This document shows positions 31,442-41,990 of a stretch of DNA of 42,746 nt, one piece after another (the stretch's first letter is position 1; every line of letters begins with the position of its first letter). Source of the stretch: a virus; the IMG/VR virus record IMGVR_UViG_3300043353_000045, positions 1 through 42,746 of that record. The stretch is one strand, 5' to 3'. A model generated the notes under the pieces. It saw only the letters and a list, made by a program, of their open reading frames with translations. It ran no database searches and had not been told where the DNA came from. A program made the position numbers and the translations under genes.

Positions 31442-32281
31442 TCACGATTTCAGCAACTCCCGTCTGTCATTTTCGAAAATGTGCAGACTAGTGCAGTGCA
31501 TGGCCAGGCTACCGGGTCGGATTGATAGCCAATCATCTCCGTTGATTTCTCGGCAGCGGTCGATGATCCACAGGAGCAGCCGCACGGCCAGGTAGCAATC
31601 GTCGGCCCAGTGACGGACGAAGTCGCAGGACCGCAAGGGGTACCACATGTGGGCTTCGCCGTCGCGGACCATGACCTGGTATCCTAAGGTGCACGGTTTG
31701 CGGCCGCCGTCGCCGACGCCCGTGTCCTCAGGAAAGAACAGCGGGATGAACCCCTGCCGGGTGTGCGGCTCTTTGGCCAGCATCTCGACCAAATCTTCGA
31801 GGTCGCCCCAGTAATAAGCGACGCCGTACTTAGGCCGCTTGTCGCCGGCAGGGTACTTCCTCAACCGGCCCTTCTCCGGCAGGGTGCCGCCGCCGGACCG
31901 GCGGGCGAACTTAGGCCACAGACGCTCCATGTAAGTGTGGTTGAAGTGGGTCTCCTTGAACCGGGCAGCGCTGCCGGCCCAGGGCCAGTTGGCCCACTCC
32001 CTCCCTGGGTTCAGGGGCTCGCCGCCCACGCGCTCCAGGAAGTGATCATCGGCCCAGGGCAGGTTCGGCTGAATGTCCTGCCGCCAGTGGTCGAGGTCCT
32101 CGAACCCGCCGAGGGATACTTCGAACTCCACGTTCCTCAGCTCGTACGACACGGCGGCAGGGTTCTGGCTGACATCGAGCCCCTGCCACCGTTCAGTGGC
32201 AACGCGCGGCGCTGTCCGAAACGCCCGCCGGAGATCCTGCCGCACGGCTTCAAACGACGGTGTGTCTGTCACGTAGATCAT
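31442..32281 (-). CDS. Thymidylate synthase-family enzyme, probable dCMP hydroxymethylase-like
   Basis: A 279-residue protein whose C-terminal half aligns without gaps to thymidylate synthase: C197 on catalytic Cys146, Q202 on Gln151, the VRDG turn, R217-S218-C219-D220 on R166-S167-C168-D169, and D228 on Asn177. Asn177 reads uracil; T4 dCMP hydroxymethylase has Asp there, so D228 points to a cytosine nucleotide substrate. It is a divergent member (Thr after the catalytic Cys instead of His). It starts in an ATGA overlap with the upstream gene. With dCMP deaminase and a MazG-like enzyme nearby, hydroxymethyl-dCMP synthesis is plausible. Plain dTMP synthesis is the alternative. Confidence 0.68.
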   Translation of the reverse strand: MIYVTDTPSFEAVRQDLRRAFRTAPRVATERWQGLDVSQNPAAVSYELRNVEFEVSLGGFEDLDHWRQDIQPNLPWADDHFLERVGGEPLNPGREWANWPWAGSAARFKETHFNHTYMERLWPKFARRSGGGTLPEKGRLRKYPAGDKRPKYGVAYYWGDLEDLVEMLAKEPHTRQGFIPLFFPEDTGVGDGGRKPCTLGYQVMVRDGEAHMWYPLRSCDFVRHWADDCYLAVRLLLWIIDRCREINGDDWLSIRPGSLAMHCTSLHIFENDRRELLKS

Positions 32282-32658
32282 TTGGGGAACTCGAAAACGT
32301 ACTCATCCCCGTTTTGAACCAGGAATGTGTCTGTGAGTCCGCATTTTTTTAATTCTCCCAACTTAAGTCGGGAGTTGTGGGTGATTCGGCCCTTTTTCTT
32401 CTGCACTTTGTGCTTAGTAAATCCGACCCGCGGTTTAACTACGATCATCCCCCGATCTTTCGTGTGGTAAAGCCACACGGTGTCATAGACTCCTACAAAA
32501 GACGGGACATGGATAGCGATCATCTGACAGTTTCGTTGTTTGCTATATCCAGGGGGGTGGTGGCCTACAGATATACGACAGGGGATTTTCTTCACTGTTT
32601 TCCTCTCCTTTGGTTGGCCGCCCTGGAACTGCGTTCGCCAAATCGGATCTATTTCCAT
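32278..32658 (-). CDS. Hypothetical basic protein
   Basis: From ATG 32658 (GGAGG five bases upstream) the product is 126 residues. It is Lys/Arg-rich with beta-strand-like stretches (IAIHVPSFVGVYDTVWLYHT, RGMIVVKPRVGFT). No family is recognised. It lies between the UDG-like and thymidylate-synthase-like genes and overlaps the latter as ATGA. Confidence 0.55.
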   Translation of the reverse strand: MEIDPIWRTQFQGGQPKERKTVKKIPCRISVGHHPPGYSKQRNCQMIAIHVPSFVGVYDTVWLYHTKDRGMIVVKPRVGFTKHKVQKKKGRITHNSRLKLGELKKCGLTDTFLVQNGDEYVFEFPK

Positions 32659-32660
32659 CA

Positions 32661-33029
32661 CTACCTCCGTGACAGAGACCGCATCAGACGCTGCGTCTTG
32701 CGTCTTACCTGCAGGCTATTGTACATCAGGTTTTTTCCCGACGGGTGGGGAATTAACCAGTATGTAGTTCTATTTTTGACCGTTGAAGTAAACCACGGAT
32801 GACGGGACGGCAGGCGGAGGTGACGCCAGGCGACGCGCCCCAGAACGACGACGGTGTCGCCCCCGCGAAAGACCGGTTCCTCTTCGGTGTTGGTTCTGAA
32901 GAACGTCGCCGTGTATTCGTCTGCGGACAGCCCGCTCAAGGCCAGCAGGCGGCGGCCCGTCCCCTTCGTGTTCGGAGGGAACGCGTCGCCGCGGCCGGTC
33001 GGGTCATCAGTTCCAACAATCCATTTCAC
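32661..33029 (-). CDS. Uracil-DNA glycosylase-superfamily-like protein
   Basis: A 122-residue protein starting at GTG 33029. MKWIVGTDDPTGRGDAFPP could supply the catalytic loop of the superfamily, followed by GTGRRLLALSGL, VVVLGRVAWRHL and WLIPHPSGKNLMYNS; the last fits the HPS motif of uracil-DNA glycosylases. It is short for the family (usually 200 or so residues) and the loop is non-canonical, so it may be a relative with changed activity. In a phage with cytosine deamination enzymes, uracil or modified-base surveillance makes sense. Tentative. Confidence 0.42.
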   Translation of the reverse strand: MKWIVGTDDPTGRGDAFPPNTKGTGRRLLALSGLSADEYTATFFRTNTEEEPVFRGGDTVVVLGRVAWRHLRLPSRHPWFTSTVKNRTTYWLIPHPSGKNLMYNSLQVRRKTQRLMRSLSRR

Positions 33030-33030
33030 G

Positions 33031-33280
33031 CTTTACCTGCTTTGCTTCGACTGGGCCGGGCTGGGCATGGCTTAGCTTGCTCCACTCTGCGCACTGGGCT
33101 TTGCCTGCTTTGCTTCGACTTAACTTCACCGCACTGTGCTCTTCCACGCTTGGCTGTGCTCGGCCTGCTTTGCTTCGACTTTGCTTTGCTGAACTCGACT
33201 TAGCTCCGCCTGCTTCGACTCTGCTAAACATCACTTGTCTGCGCTAAGCTGAACTCGACTTAGCTCCGCCTGTTTCGACT
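33031..33280. repeat. Pentanucleotide-periodic tract 1
   Basis: About 250 bases with 5-bp periodicity, each pentamer mostly NNRCT on the plus strand (AGYNN on the transcribed minus strand). It contains one phase slip near 33085. A 13-18 base motif containing CCTGC...TTCGACT recurs at 33035, 33103, 33163, 33208 and 33268. Positions 33191-33220 and 33251-33280 are a 30-base direct repeat with one mismatch. The tract runs from the UDG-like start to the stop codon of the next gene without other sequence. Confidence 0.85.
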
Positions 33281-33739
33281 TCAGGCCGTCGATCGGTTCT
33301 CCGGCCGGCCGCGACGGTGCCTACGAGGATGACGCTGGCGGACTTGATCAGCGGCTTCCCAGATCTGGACAAGCTCCTGCAGGTGATTGTAGCGGGCCTG
33401 AACCCGCTCCAATTCGTCGAGAGCATCCCCCAGCATGACTTCCCGCAGGTTAGGGACAGAGCCGACGTCTTGAATGTCCCGATAGCCACCGCCCGGTCTC
33501 ACCCGGTCGATAGTCAGGCTTACCATCTGCCGCTCGCCTTCCTCGTTCACGACGTGGACAGCGATCAGCCGGCGGACTTGGTGGCACCGCCACTCGAAGC
33601 CCGCTTTCTCATCGTCCCATTCCAGGGACTTGTGAAGATCCGAAGTCGGGTGGGCTTGCGCCCACTCGACCACCGGCTCGACCCGCAGGATGCCGCCTTG
33701 GGCCTCCCGCAACGCTAGTAACTCTTCCTTGATGCTCAC
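33281..33739 (-). CDS. Conserved phage protein of unknown function
   Basis: A 152-residue protein containing SDLHKSLEWDDEKAGFEWRC, VRRLIAVHVVNEEGERQMVS and LDELERVQARYNHLQELVQI. I recognise this as a protein widespread in alphaproteobacterial prophages, of unknown function. AGGAG precedes the ATG. It is flanked on both sides by pentanucleotide tracts that begin exactly at its stop and end at its ribosome binding site. Confidence 0.65.
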   Translation of the reverse strand: MSIKEELLALREAQGGILRVEPVVEWAQAHPTSDLHKSLEWDDEKAGFEWRCHQVRRLIAVHVVNEEGERQMVSLTIDRVRPGGGYRDIQDVGSVPNLREVMLGDALDELERVQARYNHLQELVQIWEAADQVRQRHPRRHRRGRPENRSTA

Positions 33740-33750
33740 TTTAGTCTCCT

Positions 33751-34020
33751 TTGCCTGCTTTGACTGGGCTATGCTGTGCTAAACTACGCTGATCTCCGCT
33801 TCGCTGCGCTGAGCTAAGCTTCGCCTGCTTCGACTTTGCTACGTTAATCTGTGCTGGACTAAGCTGAACTACGCTCTGCCTAGCTCCGCCTGCTTTGACT
33901 CGGCTAAACTTTGCGGGGCTCTGCTATTCTATGCTCCGATCTGCTAAACTAAGCCTGCTTCGACTGCGCTATACTTGACTAAGCTGGTCTGTGCATTACT
34001 GCGCTATGCTTGGCCTGCTA
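33751..34020. repeat. Pentanucleotide-periodic tract 2
   Basis: 54 consecutive pentamers without phase slip, nearly all of the form NNRCT or a one-base variant. The GCCTGCTT(C/T)GACT-type motif recurs at 33753, 33823, 33888 and 33953, with a truncated copy at 34013; the gaps are 70, 65, 65 and 60. It ends four bases before the stop of the next gene. It is not coding and does not form long hairpins by eye. Confidence 0.88.
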
Positions 34021-34023
34021 GGT

Positions 34024-34665
34024 TCAGGACTCGACGCGGAAAGTACCCCAGCCCATACCTGTGCTCATTTTACTATTGGGCCGTCCAGCGCCGATGCCAA
34101 CTTGACCGCCAACGCGAGCGAGCAAGTTGATGACGTCCTGAGCGTTGAACTGGTCACCGTCCCAACGCAAGGTCGGCTCGCACTCCCACGGCATGAAGAA
34201 TGGCCGTGCCAGGATATCAGTCGAACCGTTCGCCAGCTTCACAGCCATGTCCCGGCGAACCGGAGAACCAACAGTGAGATGCACGAGAGGTTGGCCGTCG
34301 TCGGTGTCGAAACCATCGGCCTCGACGAAGACGCTGAGCTTCGCGATCGTCATCTTGAAACCGACCAGGCGGCAGCCGTCGATCATGCCCGTCCGCAGGG
34401 CTGAAGCCGGAATGCCATACTGGCCCGTTTCGCTGATGTGCATCGCGCCTTTATAGACAGCGTCGAAGTCTTTAGGCGGCCGGGCGGTACCTTTCTTGGT
34501 ACGACTACCGGCCATCATGTCGTCGATCATCTTCTGCCGGTTTGCGCTGGACATTTTGTTCATGACCAGGGGGGCAGTGCCAATGATCTTGACCTTAGCC
34601 AGCTGAAAGTTCGGCGGGCTAATGGTCAAGATCGTCTTCGGCTCTTCTTTTGTCTTCGTCAGCAT
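34024..34665 (-). CDS. Conserved phage protein, possible RAMP/Cas7-like fold
   Basis: From ATG 34665 (GAGGA nine bases upstream; upstream TTG rejected) the product is 213 residues. It includes KVKIIGTAPLVMNKMS, YGIPASALRTGMIDGCRLVG and GQVGIGAGRPNSKMSTGMGW. The Gly-rich end and SALRTGM segment recall RNA-binding RAMP/Cas7-like proteins, but this is impressionistic. Homologues occur in many phages near recombination genes, from memory. Function is unknown. Confidence 0.6.
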   Translation of the reverse strand: MLTKTKEEPKTILTISPPNFQLAKVKIIGTAPLVMNKMSSANRQKMIDDMMAGSRTKKGTARPPKDFDAVYKGAMHISETGQYGIPASALRTGMIDGCRLVGFKMTIAKLSVFVEADGFDTDDGQPLVHLTVGSPVRRDMAVKLANGSTDILARPFFMPWECEPTLRWDGDQFNAQDVINLLARVGGQVGIGAGRPNSKMSTGMGWGTFRVES

Positions 34666-34711
34666 CGTTTTCGTTCCTCTGTTTTCCGGTGATTGCCGGT
34701 ACAACAGATAA

Positions 34712-34736
34712 ACTACAAAACTTCAGCCGTGTATAC
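34712..34736 (-). promoter_or_regulatory. Shared AGTTTTGTAGT / GTATAC intergenic motif
   Basis: The minus strand carries GTATAC (34731-34736) then AGTTTTGTAGT (34712-34722), about 50 bases upstream of a start codon. The same two elements occur in the divergent gap at 38664-38683. A phage promoter or operator is likely. Confidence 0.35.
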
Positions 34737-34741
34737 TAGTA

Positions 34742-35647
34742 TTATTTCTTGAACACACTAATGGTCTGATGCTTCGGCGGCTCGAAGCCATGGCGCTTCA
34801 TGCAGCTATTCAGATGCAGCGTGCCCGGGTGGTGCTTCAGGAACGCTGTGCCGACGAACTTCAGTTTCAGGCTGTCCTCGATCTGCTCGCAGAACATCTT
34901 GTGCAGCAGGAACGGCTCTTTGTTCTTGCTCATGTCCTTGATGCCAAGAACTAAGAAACCACCCTTGACCAAGTGGCCTACACAGGCTTTGTAGATCTCC
35001 ATCATGGTCTGCCAGTACTCCTCGCCCTCTTTCAGGAAAGCGAGATTGGGCAGGGTCTTGTCGTACTTGAACGTGATTTCCTGGTCGCGGTGTTCCTTGC
35101 CGCGGAGCTTCCCCTTTGGGCTGGGCATGGACACGTCGCCCGAGTACGGCGGATTGTTCAGGACCAAGTGGACTGGCGGCACCTTAGCCTTTTCCAGGAA
35201 GGTGGCGATTTCCCTGGCGTCGCCATTGCCGATCTTGACAATCGGCAGGTTGTTGATCTCCTTGGCCTTAGCGATGTTCGCCTTCAGGATGTCACCGTAC
35301 TCCAGCTCCATGCCGGCGGCGTTCCGGCCCTGGGTCACGGCTTCGACGATTGTTGTCCCCGCGCCACAAGTTGGGTCGAGGACCCACTGGTCGGGTTTGG
35401 TGTACTGCTGGATCGCCCAGCGAGAAACGTGAAGAGGAGATTTTGCGATGTGTGAATGCTTCTTACTGCCGTCAGCGTTCTTAGATCCTGACTCAGAAGG
35501 GTCATAGTATTGCCGCCGCTCCAAGCGGCTGTAGTAACTGCCGTCAGGCCGCAAGAGCTCGCCGAGGATCTTCTGGCAGTACTTGCAGCGGCAGTGGTAA
35601 AACTCGGGCACTTGGCCCTTGATCAGGTTGACTCGTTCTCCATACAT
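34742..35647 (-). CDS. DNA methyltransferase, amino (N6-adenine or N4-cytosine) type
   Basis: A 301-residue protein with AdoMet motif VLDPTCGAGTTIVEA (residues 89-103), acidic GMELEYGD, and catalytic NNPPY (164-168). HCRCKYC at residues 19-24 may be a zinc site. The order motif I then NPPY is that of alpha/gamma amino-methyltransferases. No cognate restriction enzyme is visible, so protection of phage DNA or regulation is likely. GAGGA precedes the ATG. Confidence 0.78.
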   Translation of the reverse strand: MYGERVNLIKGQVPEFYHCRCKYCQKILGELLRPDGSYYSRLERRQYYDPSESGSKNADGSKKHSHIAKSPLHVSRWAIQQYTKPDQWVLDPTCGAGTTIVEAVTQGRNAAGMELEYGDILKANIAKAKEINNLPIVKIGNGDAREIATFLEKAKVPPVHLVLNNPPYSGDVSMPSPKGKLRGKEHRDQEITFKYDKTLPNLAFLKEGEEYWQTMMEIYKACVGHLVKGGFLVLGIKDMSKNKEPFLLHKMFCEQIEDSLKLKFVGTAFLKHHPGTLHLNSCMKRHGFEPPKHQTISVFKK

Positions 35648-35649
35648 TT

Positions 35650-37056
35650 CTAGTATTCCTCTATTGTGAGCGGGGGATAAGTTTTATGGGTATCAGGATA
35701 CCCGTGTTTTTTCTTTTTGTTTACAAGGACTTGGGAGGGGGTCCGTGTTTTCTTTGGTTCAGACTTAGAATCCGGAGGGCGTAAGTCCCTAGATGGGACC
35801 GGAGTTACGTCCCCCTCAGGGGGTAAACCGTACTTCCGGGTACGGATCTGACACCGCCGGGCCAGCCAGCACTGGCCGCAGGCCTGCGGCTGGTCGGCAT
35901 AGCCCACGTTCTGGCAATACCACTGCTTGGCTTCGTCTATGTGGGGGTTAGCCGGCAGCAGGCGTACGCCTGACGACGCAAACGGCTTGCCCCCTATGTG
36001 GGCCGCGATCTGCCGGGACACGTACTCGGCGAACTGTATGGGCATTGCCTTGCCCGTCTGCCGGACCATGTGGCTGTTCTCGTCGTGGTTCCACTCGCCT
36101 TTGGCGTTCAGGATCGTGCCATAAAAGATGAAATCGTCGGGGAAGCCCATGATGCGGGCGCGCTCCCGGATGGTATAGGGCTCGCACCGCAAGTGATGGA
36201 GGGTGGCGTTCTGGCCGGTCAGGACATGGCTGGGACCGTCCCAGTGCCCCTTGAGGAAGCCGATCCGGTTGACCAGCCGGCCCTCTTTAGTGGGGTACTG
36301 CAGAGTGTGGCCAGCCCTCTTGTCGGCGAAGTACTTCTTGACGTCGCCCCAGCTGTTCTTTTTTCGGTAACCGCCTAAGTTCAGCGCTCGGAAGCATTCG
36401 GCCGACAGGTCGCACGGGTCCATGTTCGGCATGTTCGATCGCGACCGCGGCTTGCCCAGGTCACCCAGAACGTCGGCCACGGTCAACGCGTGCTCGGCTT
36501 CGCCAGGGCGGAACACCCACCGTTCTTTCTTCAGAGCGCCCAGCATGAACAAGCGCTTGCGGTTCTTCTGGACGTTGCCGTAGCCCCAGTTCGAGACCCA
36601 CTCGGGGTAAAGGTCATACTCAGGCAGACCGTCGGCGTATTCTTTCATAGGATACGCGGTCAGGGACTTCGGTAGATCGTCCATGACGAAGTAGCGGGGC
36701 TTCAGCTTTGCCACCAGTTCCACGAACAAAGGAATGTCAGACTGATCGGTCGCGGCCCGTTCCCTGAAGTTCTTATTCGCCCCGCTGAGGGCGCTGTAAG
36801 CTCCACACTCCGGGTGGCCGAGGGCCAGGTCGGGATTACTAAATCGGCGGAACTCTTCTTCCGTCATCTGCTCGACGGAGTGGGGGAACACGGCCCCTGG
36901 AAAGTTCTCCAGGAAAGTGTTGCGGCCGTCCGAGTCTTTCTCGTGGTAGTACTTCCGCCACTCGACGTTGCCCAGGACCTTGAACCCTGCAGACCGAGCA
37001 CCGATCAGGAGACTACCAATGCCACAGGTGATCCCGATTGAAGTAAGCTGTGCCAT
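35650..37056 (-). CDS. Atypical C5-cytosine methyltransferase homologue with C-terminal Cys4 motif
   Basis: A 468-residue protein. Motif I is ITCGIGSLLIGA, motif IV GHPECGAYS with catalytic Cys84, motif VI position MDDL (125-128), motif VIII QKNRKRL, motif IX YTIRERARIMGFPDDF and motif X TGKAMPIQFAE. Canonical PPCQ and ENV are thus PECG and DDL, altering residues that hold the target cytosine. About 110 residues follow motif X and include C-x11-C-x2-C-x5-C, the last part matching the spacing of the Fe-S nuclease in this window. The ATG has an AAAGG and overlaps the AsnB-like gene by 52 bases. It could modify a modified or different pyrimidine. Ordinary 5mC formation is not excluded. Confidence 0.72.
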   Translation of the reverse strand: MAQLTSIGITCGIGSLLIGARSAGFKVLGNVEWRKYYHEKDSDGRNTFLENFPGAVFPHSVEQMTEEEFRRFSNPDLALGHPECGAYSALSGANKNFRERAATDQSDIPLFVELVAKLKPRYFVMDDLPKSLTAYPMKEYADGLPEYDLYPEWVSNWGYGNVQKNRKRLFMLGALKKERWVFRPGEAEHALTVADVLGDLGKPRSRSNMPNMDPCDLSAECFRALNLGGYRKKNSWGDVKKYFADKRAGHTLQYPTKEGRLVNRIGFLKGHWDGPSHVLTGQNATLHHLRCEPYTIRERARIMGFPDDFIFYGTILNAKGEWNHDENSHMVRQTGKAMPIQFAEYVSRQIAAHIGGKPFASSGVRLLPANPHIDEAKQWYCQNVGYADQPQACGQCWLARRCQIRTRKYGLPPEGDVTPVPSRDLRPPDSKSEPKKTRTPSQVLVNKKKKHGYPDTHKTYPPLTIEEY

Positions 37057-38369
37057 GTTGCGTCCTTTTGTCGAAACAGGCGGACCAGATTTTGAGACCG
37101 CTCTTCACGGTCCTCCTCGATCCGCAGGGGTTTTTTAGGTTGGTCGGCGATCTCCGGCGGCAGGTCGTCGCGGAATAGATCGCGGAGGATTTTCTTGTTG
37201 CGCCGTTCCTCGTAAGGCAGGCCAAGGGCAATCTGAACCACCTGACGAGCCAGGAACGGACTGCGGACTTCGATCCGGTGGCGCATCATCACTCGGTCCA
37301 GGCGAACCAGGTGCCACGCGGGCAGTTCGTGGAACAAGTCTGAGCCCTGGGAGTCGTACCGCATTGCTCGGCCGTAGCCGCCGAAGCCTTCGTCTGCGCC
37401 GTCACCAGTCAGGCACACCGTTTGCTTGTCCCCGATGGCCCGAGCCAGGGCGATTTGAGGGCGCAAAGATCCTAAGTCGATCGGCTCCTGCAGGTACGAC
37501 AGGCAGGTGTCGTCGTCTACGTCCACGGAGCCGTGGACCTCGTTTACTTTTTGCTTGCCCGCGACAGCGGACACCCGGAAGTGCTCCATGGCGTCGCCGT
37601 CGCCGAGGTCCGCGTAGTAAGGGATGACGGTGCCGTGGCGACGCGCTAGGGTGTAAACAATGGAACTGTCCAAACCCCCGCTCAAAAGACAAGCCACGGG
37701 CACATCCGCGGCCAGGACCCGCCGGCGGACTGCCGCCTCGATCTCAGCTTTCAAGTCGCCTTTAACAGGATGAAGTGGATCTATGATTTCCCGGTGGACA
37801 GAACCGAACGGAGTGATGCGGACGTGTTCCCCCGGCAGGACGTGCTTGATCTGGCGGTAGGGAGTTCGCTCGACCTCAGGGCAGTAGCCCCACTTGATCA
37901 CAGCGGCCAGGTACACCTCGTCAGGCTGCGTCGGTGCCAGGATCGTCAGGGCGTTCAGCTCAGACGCGGCGGCCCGCACGTCAGCTCGGTAGTACGTGGG
38001 CTTCTGCGCCAGGTAATCGCACACCACGTGGAGCGTGCCGTTATTCTTCAGAGCCACGATGCTCCAGAAGCCGTCGTGGTCTGTCAGGCCCGTCATCCAG
38101 CGGTCCACGACGATCGGCAGGTCGCACTCGGCTTTTGGATCTTTGTCGCGGAAGTCCAGGATCTCGCCGACGAAGGCGATCGTCCAGTTGCCTTTTTGAA
38201 CGGGCTGGTCGTTTGCCGTGGACAATCCCACGATCGGCAAGCGGACATGGCCCACTGTGCCGTAGCTGTGGCTGATGACTTTCTTTCGAATGCCCCGATG
38301 GTTGAGGCTCTCGAGGGCCTTGTCAAAGGTCTTCGATTTCGGTCCTGCTTGGGCCAACCAACCGCACAC
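37005..38369 (-). CDS. Asparagine synthetase B-like glutamine amidotransferase
   Basis: The GTG at 38369, one base after the upstream stop and nine bases after AAGGA, makes Cys residue 2, the N-terminal nucleophile of class II glutamine amidotransferases; the ATG at 38417 would bury it. The glutaminase half has NHRG and GHVRLPIVG, but the oxyanion NGE is VGE (AFVGEILDF). The ATP-pyrophosphatase half has LLSGGLDSSIV and GDGADEGFGGY, then EVRSPFLARQVV. At 454 residues it is about 100 shorter than E. coli AsnB. The overlap with the C5-methyltransferase-like gene suggests joint action, perhaps amidating a carboxylated base; free asparagine synthesis is the simpler view. Confidence 0.8.
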   Translation of the reverse strand: MCGWLAQAGPKSKTFDKALESLNHRGIRKKVISHSYGTVGHVRLPIVGLSTANDQPVQKGNWTIAFVGEILDFRDKDPKAECDLPIVVDRWMTGLTDHDGFWSIVALKNNGTLHVVCDYLAQKPTYYRADVRAAASELNALTILAPTQPDEVYLAAVIKWGYCPEVERTPYRQIKHVLPGEHVRITPFGSVHREIIDPLHPVKGDLKAEIEAAVRRRVLAADVPVACLLSGGLDSSIVYTLARRHGTVIPYYADLGDGDAMEHFRVSAVAGKQKVNEVHGSVDVDDDTCLSYLQEPIDLGSLRPQIALARAIGDKQTVCLTGDGADEGFGGYGRAMRYDSQGSDLFHELPAWHLVRLDRVMMRHRIEVRSPFLARQVVQIALGLPYEERRNKKILRDLFRDDLPPEIADQPKKPLRIEEDREERSQNLVRLFRQKDATWHSLLQSGSPVALVVS

Positions 38370-38370
38370 G

Positions 38371-38631
38371 TCAGACGATCCTTTTGGATGTGATCGTGGC
38401 GTAGCCGGCAACGTCATCCCAGTGGTCGTGGTGGTTGGGGTTTCCCGAAACGATGCGGGCGGCCTTGTGCATGATCATCTCCAGGCTTTCCTTTTGGACC
38501 GCTGTCAACTCGTTCCAGGACTTGCCCGTTTGGAGCACAGCCTTAAGCTGCTGGCTGACGTCGGCAACATCTGTGAAGTCGCCGTGGACAGTGCCACGCT
38601 GCTTGAGTATCTCGTCGAGCGGACTCGTCAT
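38371..38631 (-). CDS. DUF6378-like protein
   Basis: From ATG 38631 (GGAGG four bases upstream) the product is 86 residues: ILKQRGTVHGDFTDVADVSQ, then LEMIMHKAARIVSGNPNHHD and HWDDVAGYATI. This is the DUF6378 pattern, a small helical phage protein that resembles MazG-type nucleotide pyrophosphatases in its acidic and His residues. Longer upstream frame was rejected. It leads the AsnB-like/methyltransferase operon. Confidence 0.7.
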   Translation of the reverse strand: MTSPLDEILKQRGTVHGDFTDVADVSQQLKAVLQTGKSWNELTAVQKESLEMIMHKAARIVSGNPNHHDHWDDVAGYATITSKRIV

Positions 38632-38725
38632 GTTACCTCCATGATTAAATTCCTGTATCCCATAGTTTTGTAGTATTGTATACTGGTAGATTAAAGACCC
38701 GAGGTTCTTTTCCACGGAGAAAACA
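38632..38725. promoter_or_regulatory. Divergent intergenic promoter region
   Basis: The 94 bases between the leftward DUF6378 gene and rightward helicase must hold both promoters. It contains AGTTTTGTAGT (38664-38674) and GTATAC (38678-38683) with TATACT as a possible rightward -10, and AGTAT-TGT-ATACT symmetry. No clear -35 is seen, so a phage-specific activator may be needed. Confidence 0.5.
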
Positions 38726-40168
38726 GTGACGTTCAAACCTTACGCCCACCAAGTTGAAGCCCTCCAGCGAATGGAAAACAAAGACGCGTTCGCTCTCTTG
38801 ATGACGATGCGGACCGGCAAAACCAAAGTCACGATCGACGATTGGCAAAGATCCCTCGACCGGTCCGGCGGGGTTCTGGTCGTCACTGCACCGGCAGGAG
38901 TTTACCGCGTTTGGGTAACGGAACTGAACAAGCACCTAGAACACGGGGTGCTGGAGCGGTCCATCGTCGCCGTGTGGGACAGCAAGCTGAAGATGAAGTC
39001 CATCGCGCCGCTGTTCCAGATCACGAAGCGGCCTAAGATCCTGATCGCGAACATCGAGGCCTTCAGCGTCGTGCAAGAGGTTCGGGACGCCTGCGCTGCC
39101 CTCCTGCAGATGCACCCCCAGTCCATGTTAGTCATCGACGAGAGCACTACGATCCTGCGGTGGGAGCAAAGCGGCAAGGGATCGCATCGGGCGCAGTCGA
39201 TCCACAACCTGCGGCCCTTAGCCGGCAAGGTCCGCATCCTGTCGGGCTTGCCTACGCCGCGGTCGCCCTTAGACCTGTGGGGTCAATTCGAGTTCCTGAA
39301 ACCAGGTCTCCTGGGGTTCATTTCGTACAAGGCCTTCCAGCAGCGATACGCGATCGTTAAGAACATCATCGTCGGCGGCAAGTTTCACATTCCGCTGGTG
39401 GTTCGGTACACGGACAAGATCGACGAGCTGTGGTCTAAATTAGAACCCTGGTCCTACCGCAAGCGTCTCGAGGACTGCGCTGACGTGCCGCCTAAGCTGT
39501 ACGTGACCCGCGAAGTCGAGATGACGCCCGTTCAGGAACGGCTTTATCGGCAGATGGAAGCCACCGCGACGGCTGAGATCCGCGACGGGGTGTTCATGTC
39601 CTCCCAGCACAGCATCACGACGACTCTACGACTCCACCAGTTGTGCTGTGGCTGGGCTACGGACGACGAAACAAAGACGACTGAGCAGGTCCCTGAGAAC
39701 CGGACTAACGCGCTCCTGGAGCTCCTGGAGGACCACGACGGCAAGGCGATCGTCTGGTGCAGTTACACCCGCGACCTGCAGAAGGTGGCGGCCTCCCTCG
39801 AGCGGCGGTTCGGGGCGCAGTCCACCGTGACGTTCTGGGGACAGAACCGCGACACCCGGGAAGAGTCGAGCAACAGGTTCAAGAACGATCCTGACTGCCG
39901 GTTCATCGTCGCCACGCCGGGATCAGGCGGCCGCGGCCGTGACTGGTCCGAAGCCAACTTAATTGTTTACTACTCGAACACGGATAACTTAGAACACAGA
40001 GACCAATCCGAGGAACGGGCGTCTTCTATTCAGCAAACGGATCGCGTGACGATCGTTGACTTCGTGACCCGCGACACCGTCGAGTGGAAGATTATCTACG
40101 CTATGCGGAAGAAGATTGATCTGGCAACTGTGGTCCTCTCGGACCCCCAAAGGGAGTGGGTTGTGTAA
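38726..40168 (+). CDS. SNF2-type DEAD/DEAH-box helicase
   Basis: A 480-residue superfamily 2 helicase starting at GTG with CGGAG upstream. Q-motif-like YAHQVEALQRM, Walker A MRTGKT (28-33), motif II LVIDEST (135-141) instead of DEAH, motif V region VATPGSGGRGRDWSEAN, and motif VI EERASSIQQTDRV. This is the phage SNF2 family, used in replication or recombination fork processing. It opens a three-gene plus-strand operon. Confidence 0.85.
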   Translation: MTFKPYAHQVEALQRMENKDAFALLMTMRTGKTKVTIDDWQRSLDRSGGVLVVTAPAGVYRVWVTELNKHLEHGVLERSIVAVWDSKLKMKSIAPLFQITKRPKILIANIEAFSVVQEVRDACAALLQMHPQSMLVIDESTTILRWEQSGKGSHRAQSIHNLRPLAGKVRILSGLPTPRSPLDLWGQFEFLKPGLLGFISYKAFQQRYAIVKNIIVGGKFHIPLVVRYTDKIDELWSKLEPWSYRKRLEDCADVPPKLYVTREVEMTPVQERLYRQMEATATAEIRDGVFMSSQHSITTTLRLHQLCCGWATDDETKTTEQVPENRTNALLELLEDHDGKAIVWCSYTRDLQKVAASLERRFGAQSTVTFWGQNRDTREESSNRFKNDPDCRFIVATPGSGGRGRDWSEANLIVYYSNTDNLEHRDQSEERASSIQQTDRVTIVDFVTRDTVEWKIIYAMRKKIDLATVVLSDPQREWVV

Positions 40169-40539
40169 TGACAATGTACGATGATATACGTAAGTTTCAC
40201 GAGAAGTTCGGTCTGGACTACAAAGGACCGCCGCGGGAAATTGCCGGAGCCCTGGAGGATTTTCGGGCTCGGTTCATGCAAGAAGAACTCGACGAGTTCT
40301 GCGACGCCGAAAGCCTGGAAAAGAAACTCGACGCCCTCGTGGATCTCGTCTACGTCGCCCTCGGGACAGCGTACCTTTACGGCTTCGACTTCGACGAGGC
40401 CTGGCGTCGCGTCCACGAAGCCAACATGAAGAAGGTCCGCGCCCAGCCCGACGGTTCAGACTCTGCCCGGCAGTCCATGTACGACGTGGTGAAGCCGGCG
40501 GGCTGGACGGCTCCTGACCTGTCTGATTTAACCCGATGA
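40168..40539 (+). CDS. MazG-like / phosphoribosyl-ATP pyrophosphatase-like NTP pyrophosphohydrolase
   Basis: From the ATG overlapping the helicase stop (TAATG) the product is 123 residues. The all-alpha NTP-PPase signature is FMQEELDEFCDAESLEKKLD followed by ALVDLVYVALGTAYLYGFDF, giving the ExxE...ExxxD-type metal ligands. The fold includes T4 gp56 dCTPase, so hydrolysis of dCTP or dUTP would suit this cluster. Exact nucleotide is not predictable from the sequence. Confidence 0.75.
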   Translation: MTMYDDIRKFHEKFGLDYKGPPREIAGALEDFRARFMQEELDEFCDAESLEKKLDALVDLVYVALGTAYLYGFDFDEAWRRVHEANMKKVRAQPDGSDSARQSMYDVVKPAGWTAPDLSDLTR

Positions 40540-40964
40540 CCAACTGGGACCGCCGCTACTTTGCCTTAGCCCAGCACGTGTCTCAGTGGAGCCGTGACCC
40601 GTCCACTCAGGTGGGGGCTGTCGTCGTCGGCCGTGACCGCAGGCTGATCGCCTTCGGTTACAATGGCTTCCCGCCGGGGGTTAAGGACACGACTGAGAGG
40701 TTGGCTGACAAGCCGACCAAGTACGCCCTGACGCAGCACGCGGAGCGTAATGCCCTGGACTTTGCCCGGTTCGATCTGGAAGGCGCCACGCTGGTGACGA
40801 CGATGTTCCCCTGCCAGGAGTGTGCTAAGTCGATCGTGTCCAGGGGCATCAAGCGGGTGGTTACGCCGCCGCCCCTGGACCGAGAGCCTTGGAAGTCTTC
40901 ATCCGATTGGACGCAGATGATGTTCCAGGAAGTCGGGATTACCGTGGTGATTTTAACCGATTGA
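40536..40964 (+). CDS. Deoxycytidylate deaminase
   Basis: A 142-residue dCMP deaminase. Zinc and catalytic residues: HAERNAL (His, Glu) and MFPCQECAKS (two Cys). VGAVVVGRDRRLIAFGYNGF and PPGVKD are the substrate-binding segments. It converts dCMP to dUMP. The ATG overlaps the MazG-like stop as ATGA. The last 26 bases overlap the end of the convergent minus-strand gene. Confidence 0.88.
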   Translation: MTNWDRRYFALAQHVSQWSRDPSTQVGAVVVGRDRRLIAFGYNGFPPGVKDTTERLADKPTKYALTQHAERNALDFARFDLEGATLVTTMFPCQECAKSIVSRGIKRVVTPPPLDREPWKSSSDWTQMMFQEVGITVVILTD

Positions 40965-41634
40965 TCCCTATCGCGGATAGCTGCTCCTCGACTGACTTGA
41001 CCCTGCCGGCCAAGTCGGTGAGGCGCTGAACGATCGGCTGTGTGATCTTGCTGAACTCCCTGATTTCGTTCAAGAGACCCTGGGCCTCGTTGATTACCTT
41101 GGAGTCTTTCTCGTTGATGTCCGGGCCGAAAGTCTCGTCCCGAACCGTGCTGACGAAAGCCCGCGGTGTCCCTAAGTCTGTGGCGATCCGCTCGTCGCTC
41201 CATCCCATTTCGTAGCCGACCTGTTCCCCGAGCCAGTGTTCGTTGATCTTCATAGTGATCAGGTATCGCTCGTCTCGGGTCATAGCCCGCGGGGCAGTTT
41301 TGCTAGTGAGGGTAGACTGTAGGGCCGTCGTGGATTGCATAGGGATTACCGTTGATTTGTCGTCTTTCATGATGATGATTTCCTTCTTGCTGAGAAAACA
41401 GGTCCCGCAGAGATGCTGGGACTTCGTCTTTCCTATCACCCACCCTAGTTTCTTGAATTTGTGGATGATGATCCGTTCTTCGACTTCGCTTTCGACTGGA
41501 CCTTTCACGGTGTTGATTATCGTTTCTTCTTTCTTGCTGCAGTGGCTGCAGGCCAGGCTAGCGCCCCTCTTGAAGTGACCATTGTCCATCTGGATGGAAC
41601 AGAAATCGACTAACTCGTAGTCTGCTTTCTTCAT
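40939..41634 (-). CDS. Protein with Cys4 zinc site, HTH-like segment and coiled coil
   Basis: From ATG 41634 (ATGA overlap with the upstream stop) the product is 231 residues. CSHCSKKEE and LCGTCFL form a C-x2-C pair twice, likely one zinc site. Residues near 145-165 (GWSDERIATDLGTPRAFVST) look like a helix-turn-helix, followed by a heptad-rich tail (EAQGLLNEIREFSKITQPIV). A DNA-binding regulator is plausible. I do not recognise the family. Confidence 0.6.
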   Translation of the reverse strand: MKKADYELVDFCSIQMDNGHFKRGASLACSHCSKKEETIINTVKGPVESEVEERIIIHKFKKLGWVIGKTKSQHLCGTCFLSKKEIIIMKDDKSTVIPMQSTTALQSTLTSKTAPRAMTRDERYLITMKINEHWLGEQVGYEMGWSDERIATDLGTPRAFVSTVRDETFGPDINEKDSKVINEAQGLLNEIREFSKITQPIVQRLTDLAGRVKSVEEQLSAIGINRLKSPR

Positions 41635-41990
41635 CGGAGATACTCCACTAAGCCGTGCAAGTCCTCGAACTGGACGACCGACGGCAGCCAGCAGAACACG
41701 CACTCCCGACTGCCGACGACGATGAGTTTCTTGTTTTGGGCGTGGGCGTAGCCGGCTTCGAACCAGCGGCCGCCGCCGGGGTTCATCGAACCGATCGGGT
41801 CCGTGAACAGGATCAGGGCCTCAGACTGGTTCAGGTCCTCGATGCATATCCCGGCGGCAACCCTACCTGAGTCATCGTCCTGCCACACCCACCGGGACAC
41901 GACTTCGTGACCGAGTTCCTGGATGACGGGCCGGACGATTTTTTTCATCATGCTCCTTTTGCTGAATTTGCAGCTCAGATAGATCTTCAT
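41631..41990 (-). CDS. Nucleoside 2-deoxyribosyltransferase-like protein
   Basis: A 119-residue protein: MKIYLSCKFSKRSMMKKIV, ELGHEVVSRW, an Asp-containing EDLNQSEALILFTD, and GGRWFEAGYAHAQNKKLIVV, in which the Glu fits the nucleophile of the family. Such enzymes exchange bases on deoxyribonucleosides or hydrolyse nucleotides. The ATG has no good ribosome binding site and lies 119 bases inside the upstream gene, so translation may depend on it. Confidence 0.65.
   Translation of the reverse strand: MKIYLSCKFSKRSMMKKIVRPVIQELGHEVVSRWVWQDDDSGRVAAGICIEDLNQSEALILFTDPIGSMNPGGGRWFEAGYAHAQNKKLIVVGSRECVFCWLPSVVQFEDLHGLVEYLR

Follow-up and report, generated by a model that had tools for sequence, protein, structure and literature searches.

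A candidate two-stage cytosine hypermodification pathway in a phage lineage with atypical C5-methyltransferase homologues

The 42,746-base virus record IMGVR_UViG_3300043353_000045 (analysed over its whole length and referred to below as the window) harbours, within positions 31442–40964, genes for a thymidylate synthase (TS)-like enzyme, an atypical homologue of C5-methyltransferases (C5-MTases) and an AsnB-like amidotransferase, which form a co-inherited module in a lineage of phage loci. These genes are tentatively interpreted here, with a probability of roughly 45 %, to encode a two-stage cytosine hypermodification, in which the TS-like enzyme would act on the nucleotide and the C5-MTase-fold and AsnB-like enzymes subsequently on DNA, perhaps ending in an amide. 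A first-pass annotation of this region had postulated a T4-like cytosine economy with the latter two enzymes possibly acting on DNA. The gene types named there are all present as open frames with Pfam or PHROG matches (weak for a uracil-DNA glycosylase (UDG)-like protein), and a dedicated cytosine economy including DNA-level modification is retained as the best reading, because the gene set co-occurs and the homologous CmoX/CmoY pair has been proven in another phage (PMC12783734). The T4 label, however, proved too simple.

A profile of the C5-MTase homologue matched 51 distinct IMG/VR loci, including the window phage, which constitute the lineage; neighbouring genes were counted within 7 kb of the C5-MTase gene or up to the contig end. 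TS-like genes were detected in 47 of the 51 loci; searches of whole records added the contig of locus L100 and thereby raised the count to 48 of 51 contigs. Those without a detected copy are all fragments (10.4, 10.3 and 5.2 kb). AsnB-like genes were likewise found in 47 loci, but not in four whole records of 4.1, 5.9, 17.8 (L112) and 50.7 kb (L114). Among 80 ordinary phage C5-MTase loci (the best 80 of at least 499 matches; 56 loci of at least 9 kb), no match to TS-like, AsnB or CmoA was found, even though the TS profile matches T4 gp42 and the RB69 enzyme and is thus not blind to relatives. Recurrence of the trio therefore exceeds chance, and the co-inheritance anticipated by the first-pass annotation was recovered. 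C5-MTases of loci with the recurring trio are down to 31 % identical in pairwise comparison; in the divergent locus L122 the TS, C5-MTase and AsnB genes are consecutive and only few bases apart, and L068 and L069 show a different arrangement of the genes, which together argue for a functional relation rather than mere neighbourhood.

Several further genes accompany the module. Either a MazG-like (15 loci) or a dUTPase_2-like protein (24 loci) is encoded in 39 of the 51 loci, never both together, a dCMP (deoxycytidine monophosphate) deaminase profile match likewise occurs in 39, and UDG-like relatives occur in 10. An N4/N6-type DNA methyltransferase (MT2) is present in 20 of 51 lineage versus 9 of 80 ordinary loci; dCMP deaminase and DUF6378 matches were obtained in two of the 80 ordinary loci each. 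A survey of 27 loci, undertaken as a look for other genes that might supply a carboxylate, revealed as families shared by at least eight loci AsnB, C5-MTase with MT2, TS, DNA polymerase, dCMP deaminase, MazG, DUF6378, helicase, dUTPase_2, the UDG-like protein and one unannotated family (L065 being badly gene-called). The only match to the lineage in genome_contigs was L125 (RPRB01000006.1), which with 75,335 bases has the same length as the L065 phage contig and is binned in a Myxococcaceae metagenome-assembled genome (MAG). A cellular origin of the lineage was rejected; the contig represents a weak host hint at best, or a binning error.

CmoX is a DNA carboxymethyltransferase, Arg350 of which binds the carboxylate of carboxy-S-adenosylmethionine (carboxy-SAM); together with the AsnB-like CmoY of the same phage it was proven to form 5-carboxymethylcytosine, which is then amidated (PMC12783734). 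The CmoA-CmoX-CmoY system of Synechococcus phage S-B43, for which 5-carboxymethylcytosine and a glycine amide are reported (PMC12783734), resembles the lineage in combining a C5-MTase fold bearing a basic residue at the cofactor-carboxylate position with an adjoining AsnB-like ligase and a nearby gene annotated as pyrophosphatase. The CmoX control set, comprising the best 80 of 362 matches (86–97 % identical to the query, with an average length of 7.6 kb), contains CmoA in 63 loci and, of 22 loci of at least 9 kb, in 21; no TS-like gene was found in any of the 80, the 22 longer loci included. Conversely, searches over the full length of the 51 lineage contigs, many of which are fragments, gave no CmoA match, and the host may supply CmoA; as positive controls, S-B43 and two CmoX contigs matched with E-values of about 1e-34, albeit with scores below the curated cut-off of the family. 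The lineage and the CmoX pathway share ligase and fold, and exchange CmoA for a TS-like gene. Mainly because of this exchange, the TS-like enzyme is considered the source of the C5 substituent.

The C5-MTase homologue of the window (35650–37056, minus strand; PF00145, E 2.9e-17) was described as atypical from the outset, and the alignment of the lineage bears this out. All 51 sequences retain the Cys nucleophile and the Arg of motif VIII, the motif I glycines are kept in 50 (one gap), and the ribose-binding residue is Glu in 43 and Asp in seven (one gap). The usual form of motif IV is HPEC: 50 of 51 sequences have His, and the residue preceding Cys is Glu (42), Asp (6) or Lys (3). The Glu of the ENV motif is replaced by Asp throughout. 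The position of M.HhaI Asn304 is occupied by Lys in all 51 lineage enzymes (Lys336 in the window, at the CmoX Arg350 position), by Arg in all 80 CmoX sequences and, among the 52 ordinary enzymes resolved there, by Asn in 51 and Arg in one (28 of 80 rows gapped). Equivalents of Asp69 and Phe25 are kept in only 4 and 3 of the 51 lineage enzymes, respectively. CmoX thus features SPPC, Arg, the ENV Glu and CmoA, whereas the Lys lineage features mostly HPEC, Lys, Asp and a TS-like partner. A simple CmoX clone was accordingly rejected, as the SPPC motif and Arg350 are lacking (Ser95 being replaced by His in 50 of 51) and no CmoA was found in the 51 contigs.

In a tree of 75 sequences (26 lineage loci, i.e. 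every second one, 12 of the 80 CmoX enzymes and the 37 ordinary enzymes in which motif X is clear), the Lys lineage separates from ordinary and CmoX enzymes taken together with a support of 1.0, as read from the tree as built (the re-rooted printout being ambiguous: 1.0, 0.178); Lys and Arg therefore seem to have arisen separately. The AlphaFold2 (AF2) model of the homologue (predicted local distance difference test score (pLDDT) 86.1) matches several C5-MTases at Z 25–27, among them 8yf3 (Z 25.1, root-mean-square deviation 3.7, 293 aligned residues), which ties with ordinary C5-MTases. A further difference from the CmoX system is a C-terminal four-cysteine motif in 40 of the 51 enzymes, the window copy of which, CX11CX2CX5C, follows the C5-MTase fold; the spacing of its last three cysteines resembles that of Fe-S loops. 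In L104 (on the contig of L067, 7989–10253) and in L090, the homologue and the N4/N6-type methyltransferase constitute one open frame, and this fusion in two distinct contigs suggests that both may act together. In the window, MT2 (34742–35647, minus strand; PF01555, E 6.5e-14; NPPY motif), which the first-pass annotation had missed, directly adjoins the homologue.

The TS-like gene (31442–32281, minus strand) matches PHROG 160 (thymidylate synthase, E 1.1e-21), PF00303 merely at 0.035, and is predicted to encode a TS-superfamily dCMP C5-modifying enzyme. In dCMP hydroxymethylase of T4, Asp179 is the dCMP determinant, the signature of hydroxymethylation consists of Asp145 with Ser94 and Tyr96, and the C-terminal tail is missing unlike in TS; Asp145 is needed for water activation, and D145N abolishes activity (PMC6400193). 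Residues Cys197 and Asp228 of the window protein align with Cys148 and Asp179 of T4, respectively. The alignment comprises 51 rows (46 of the 47 lineage sequences and five annotated phage relatives; one further fragment is gapped), in which the equivalents of Cys148, Asp179, Tyr96 and Asp171 are kept (the first two in 51/51), Asp145 is replaced by Arg (51/51) and the Ser94 position holds His (31) or Tyr (20). The region of Glu60, the residue that activates methylene-THF in the T4 enzyme, aligns poorly, with Asn in 35 of 52 sequences at the column and a conserved Glu/Asp-Arg pair ten residues on. An initial pattern search had returned the Asp in 42 of 47 sequences, the other five including a fragment and a RACD sequence, and is superseded by the alignment. 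The C-terminal TS tail is absent, the window protein stopping 10 residues past SLHIF. Since the Asp179 equivalent is kept, predicted specificity for cytosine nucleotides is well supported. The hydroxymethylase residue reported by the first-pass annotation is thus present together with the catalytic Cys; the label of a T4-like hydroxymethylase is not supported as given, with Arg at the Asp145 position, and a canonical dCMP hydroxymethylase was discarded on account of the two altered signature positions (Asp145, Ser94).

5-Hydroxy-dCMP synthases are also members of the TS superfamily (PMC13390438), and best PDB profile matches of the TS-like protein are 9iqu and 9iqc, titled dCMP hydroxylase AfhB and riboflavin-dependent monooxygenase; a literature search on both entries found nothing relevant. 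By profile, the family is nearest to the RB69/HY126 5-hydroxy-dCMP synthase (AfhB), with which it shares the TS fold, the Cys and Asp179 equivalents and, as predicted, dCMP as substrate. The RB69 homologue differs in having Asn at the pterin Asp171 position and Glu, three residues before Cys, at the Asp145 position, where the TS-like family has Asp and Arg, respectively. The AF2 model of the TS-like protein (pLDDT 81, poor at residues 116–158) matches structures of MilA, AfhB, T4 dCMP hydroxymethylase and TS, and the fold does not separate them, Z being 18.1–18.6 for TS, MilA and AfhB and 17.6–17.7 for the T4 enzyme (a tie within about 1).

ThyX is encoded alongside the TS-like gene in 8 of 38 lineage contigs searched, so that at least in these the formation of thymidine monophosphate (dTMP) does not depend on the TS-like gene. 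A role as dTMP source was rejected, this redundancy being demonstrated only in those 8 of 38 contigs; ThyX was not found in G002, the longer contig of the window phage. Relatives in isolated phages (PHROG 160, annotated as thymidylate synthase or pyrimidine hmase) amount to 110 records, all below 60 % identity, from phages of Desulfofustis, Brevundimonas, Serratia and Gordonia as well as Muddy, and the same Arg and Asp are found in all five annotated relatives aligned. These PHROG 160 proteins belong to the same family as the TS-like protein of the window, but the isolated phages yielded no AsnB match (at E 1e-5) and only partial C5-MTase matches (53, the best listed 22–30 % identical). In four annotated phages (L002–L005), a protein of 262–279 residues with no Pfam match above cut-off is encoded before the TS-like gene, two small genes sitting in between in L002. 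The TS-like gene of L049 (11006–12478) is interrupted in frame by a long insertion, perhaps an intein or homing endonuclease, in which the stretch AGMIDGEGTI is by eye LAGLIDADG-like.

The AsnB-like ligase is a predicted glutamine-dependent amide ligase with PF00733 (E 4.4e-34) and GATase_6 (PF13522, E 2.4e-07) matches, as the first-pass annotation had recognized. Its gene lies on the minus strand at 37005–38369 (open frame to 38417); the GTG at 38369 is preferred as start, since the resulting N-terminus MCGW has the glutaminase Cys as second residue, as in functional forms, and the gene overlaps that of the C5-MTase homologue by 52 bases. Of the 47 lineage sequences, 45 have CG preceded by M, V or L among the first 140 residues of their open frame, and 44 have the SGG of the PP-loop. 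A glutaminase-type start is also found in 39 of 48 AsnB matches in the CmoX loci.

We infer the chemistry of the proposed pathway, in all its steps, from the gene set and its joint inheritance, from the replacement of CmoA by a TS-like gene and from the altered residues. The TS-like enzyme would modify dCMP at C5, with 5-hydroxymethyl as the most likely substituent and 5-hydroxy or a related group as a possibility, and would thereby take the place of CmoA and carboxy-SAM in the CmoX/CmoY pathway. A MazG- or dUTPase_2-type pyrophosphatase would lower the pool of the normal deoxynucleoside triphosphate (dNTP), and the modified nucleotide would enter DNA. There, the C5-MTase-fold enzyme would flip out the 5-substituted cytosine, the conserved Cys84 attacking C6, and elaborate the C5 substituent with a carboxylate-bearing group held by Lys336. 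Finally, by homology with CmoY, the AsnB-like ligase would adenylate the carboxylate and amidate it with glutamine-derived ammonia. A more specific and rather doubtful version of the third step assumes a natural C5-MTase-fold enzyme that no longer methylates: via the Cys–C6 adduct, it would eliminate the leaving group of 5-hydroxymethylcytosine (5hmC), or of the related product of the TS-like enzyme, and add a lysine-held carboxylate nucleophile, to be amidated by the AsnB-like ligase. If true, this enzyme would be a carboxy-SAM-free counterpart of CmoX, fusing the T4 and CmoX routes. Action of C5-MTases on 5-substituted cytosine, as the pathway assumes in general, has precedents in vitro: an engineered M.SssI attaches thiols, cysteamine for instance, to 5hmC (PMC7176277), and M.MpeI presumably strips 5hmC of its hydroxymethyl group prior to methylation (PMC11347137).

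Several observations weigh against the two-stage pathway. The lineage loci share descent, their counts hence not being independent events, and correlations in a Mantel test of 40 loci (near duplicates L086, L119 and L124 excluded) possibly reflect plain vertical descent; the CmoX control set is narrow, and at least the 50.7-kb record without AsnB looks like a real exception. The kept motif I glycines and ribose-binding Glu imply that a SAM-type cofactor may still bind, and Arg at the Asp145 position removes the residue required by the T4 enzyme. In the fetched stretches of the five annotated phage relatives no C5-MTase or AsnB is annotated, and the product of the TS-like enzyme may be unrelated to either. 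Engineered M.MpeI N374K, with Lys at the position in question, also accepts carboxy-SAM (PMC12783734), a precedent fitting host-supplied carboxy-SAM equally well. The latter would apply to an unlikely alternative, a second, independent CmoX that transfers carboxy-SAM made by host CmoA onto plain cytosine, the AsnB-like ligase forming carbamoylmethylcytosine and the TS-like enzyme serving a separate modification or nucleotide supply. Host CmoA indeed sufficed for CmoX in E. coli (PMC12783734), and the glutaminase-type AsnB of many CmoX loci, as well as the largely kept motif I glycines and ribose Glu, agree with this explanation. However, CmoA is found in none of the 51 lineage contigs versus 63 of 80 CmoX loci, Asp69 and Phe25 are mostly lost, the ENV Glu is Asp throughout, and the near-constant TS-like partner would be left unexplained.

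Other alternatives concern the TS-like enzyme itself. It could be a flavin-dependent dCMP hydroxylase of the RB69 type forming 5-hydroxycytosine, the hydroxyl of which the C5-MTase-like enzyme alkylates or ignores. The profile of the family scores 62 bits against the RB69 homologue versus 40 bits against T4 gp42, which counts against a 5-hydroxymethyl product in the two-stage pathway and, like the 9iqu/9iqc matches, favours the hydroxylase; because of this greater nearness, the latter was weighted up and a T4-like economy slightly down. With Asp and Arg in place of the RB69 Asn and Glu, and with the fold comparison tied, a hydroxylase nevertheless appears improbable. Quite improbable is also a T4-like economy proper, in which a true dCMP hydroxymethylase and a MazG-fold dCTPase would replace cytosine, the C5-MTase homologue and the ligase acting elsewhere. 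The window does share with the T4 gp42/dCTPase economy a TS-fold enzyme with the dCMP-reading Asp, a dNTP pyrophosphatase and a dCMP deaminase; the four kept active-site equivalents, the absent tail and the 39 loci with a MazG- or dUTPase_2-like protein are compatible with it. The water-activating Asp145, loss of which kills T4 activity, is Arg in every row, Ser94 is His or Tyr, and the DNA-level partners, of C5-MTase and AsnB folds in contrast to T4, would recur without explanation. Finally, every fold involved has a common metabolic relative, and the genes might merely share an early-gene region while serving C5 methylation that evades restriction, the scavenging of nucleotides and, in the case of AsnB, metabolism. 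Co-occurrence far above the controls, the altered active site of the C5-MTase homologue and the fact that the sole genome_contigs match is the MAG-binned contig of the same length as a phage contig render this explanation very improbable.

The window apparently derives from the same phage as the circularly permuted IMG/VR contig 3300044492_000149 (G002, 69,614 bases): the two overlap by 13,823 bases with a single mismatch, and 48 of 49 called window genes were matched at about 100 %. On the minus strand, in the order of transcription, DUF6378, AsnB-like, C5-MTase homologue, N4/N6-type methyltransferase, weak UDG-like and TS-like genes are arranged, interspersed with unassigned frames; the plus strand encodes an SNF2-type helicase, a MazG-fold protein and a dCMP deaminase. 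The DUF6378 gene (38371–38631, minus strand; PF19905, E 5.8e-07) is, like MT2, an addition to the first-pass annotation. Its assignments of a MazG fold (40174–40539, alternative start 40156, plus strand; PF01503, E 8e-14, an all-alpha nucleoside triphosphate pyrophosphatase family; PHROG 671, E 6.8e-26) and of a dCMP deaminase (40536–40964, plus strand; PF00383, E 4.6e-21; PHROG 174, E 1.9e-47; HAE and PCxxC motifs) agree with the family matches. The frame of its short UDG-like protein (32661–33029, minus strand) is present, but the PF03167 match (E 0.015) remains below the cut-off (15.8 versus 24.3 bits). The DNA polymerase homologue of L066 (12308–14785) starts, by eye, with a stretch resembling family 4 UDG. 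Between the UDG-like gene and the next upstream gene of the window, a frame at 33007–33234 contains the repeats SRSKAGRAQ and SRSKAGKAQ. The protein encoded at 41631–41990 bears a weak resemblance to nucleoside 2-deoxyribosyltransferases (PF05014, E 0.0051, not reaching the cut-off) and may have a role in nucleotide supply. A Pfam scan covering 16 of the 49 window genes called revealed no glucosyltransferase.

The system would represent a variant of the known phage cytosine hypermodification. No description of the Lys lineage or of the combined TS, C5-MTase and AsnB set was found in the literature searched, in which most paywalled articles and bioRxiv preprints were not included. The first account of carboxymethylcytosine as a natural base dates from December 2025, and the underlying search, which required SPPC and Arg350 (PMC12783734), would pass over the Lys lineage. 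If the two-stage pathway is true, an amide-bearing cytosine would be reached by phages via two routes, with a common ligase and MTase fold but different sources of the C5 carbon. The lineage would then provide a natural counterpart to the in-vitro reaction of C5-MTases on 5hmC and new enzymes for DNA labelling, and would bring a function within reach for the widespread TS-like family, the members of which in the 110 phage records are mostly annotated as thymidylate synthase.

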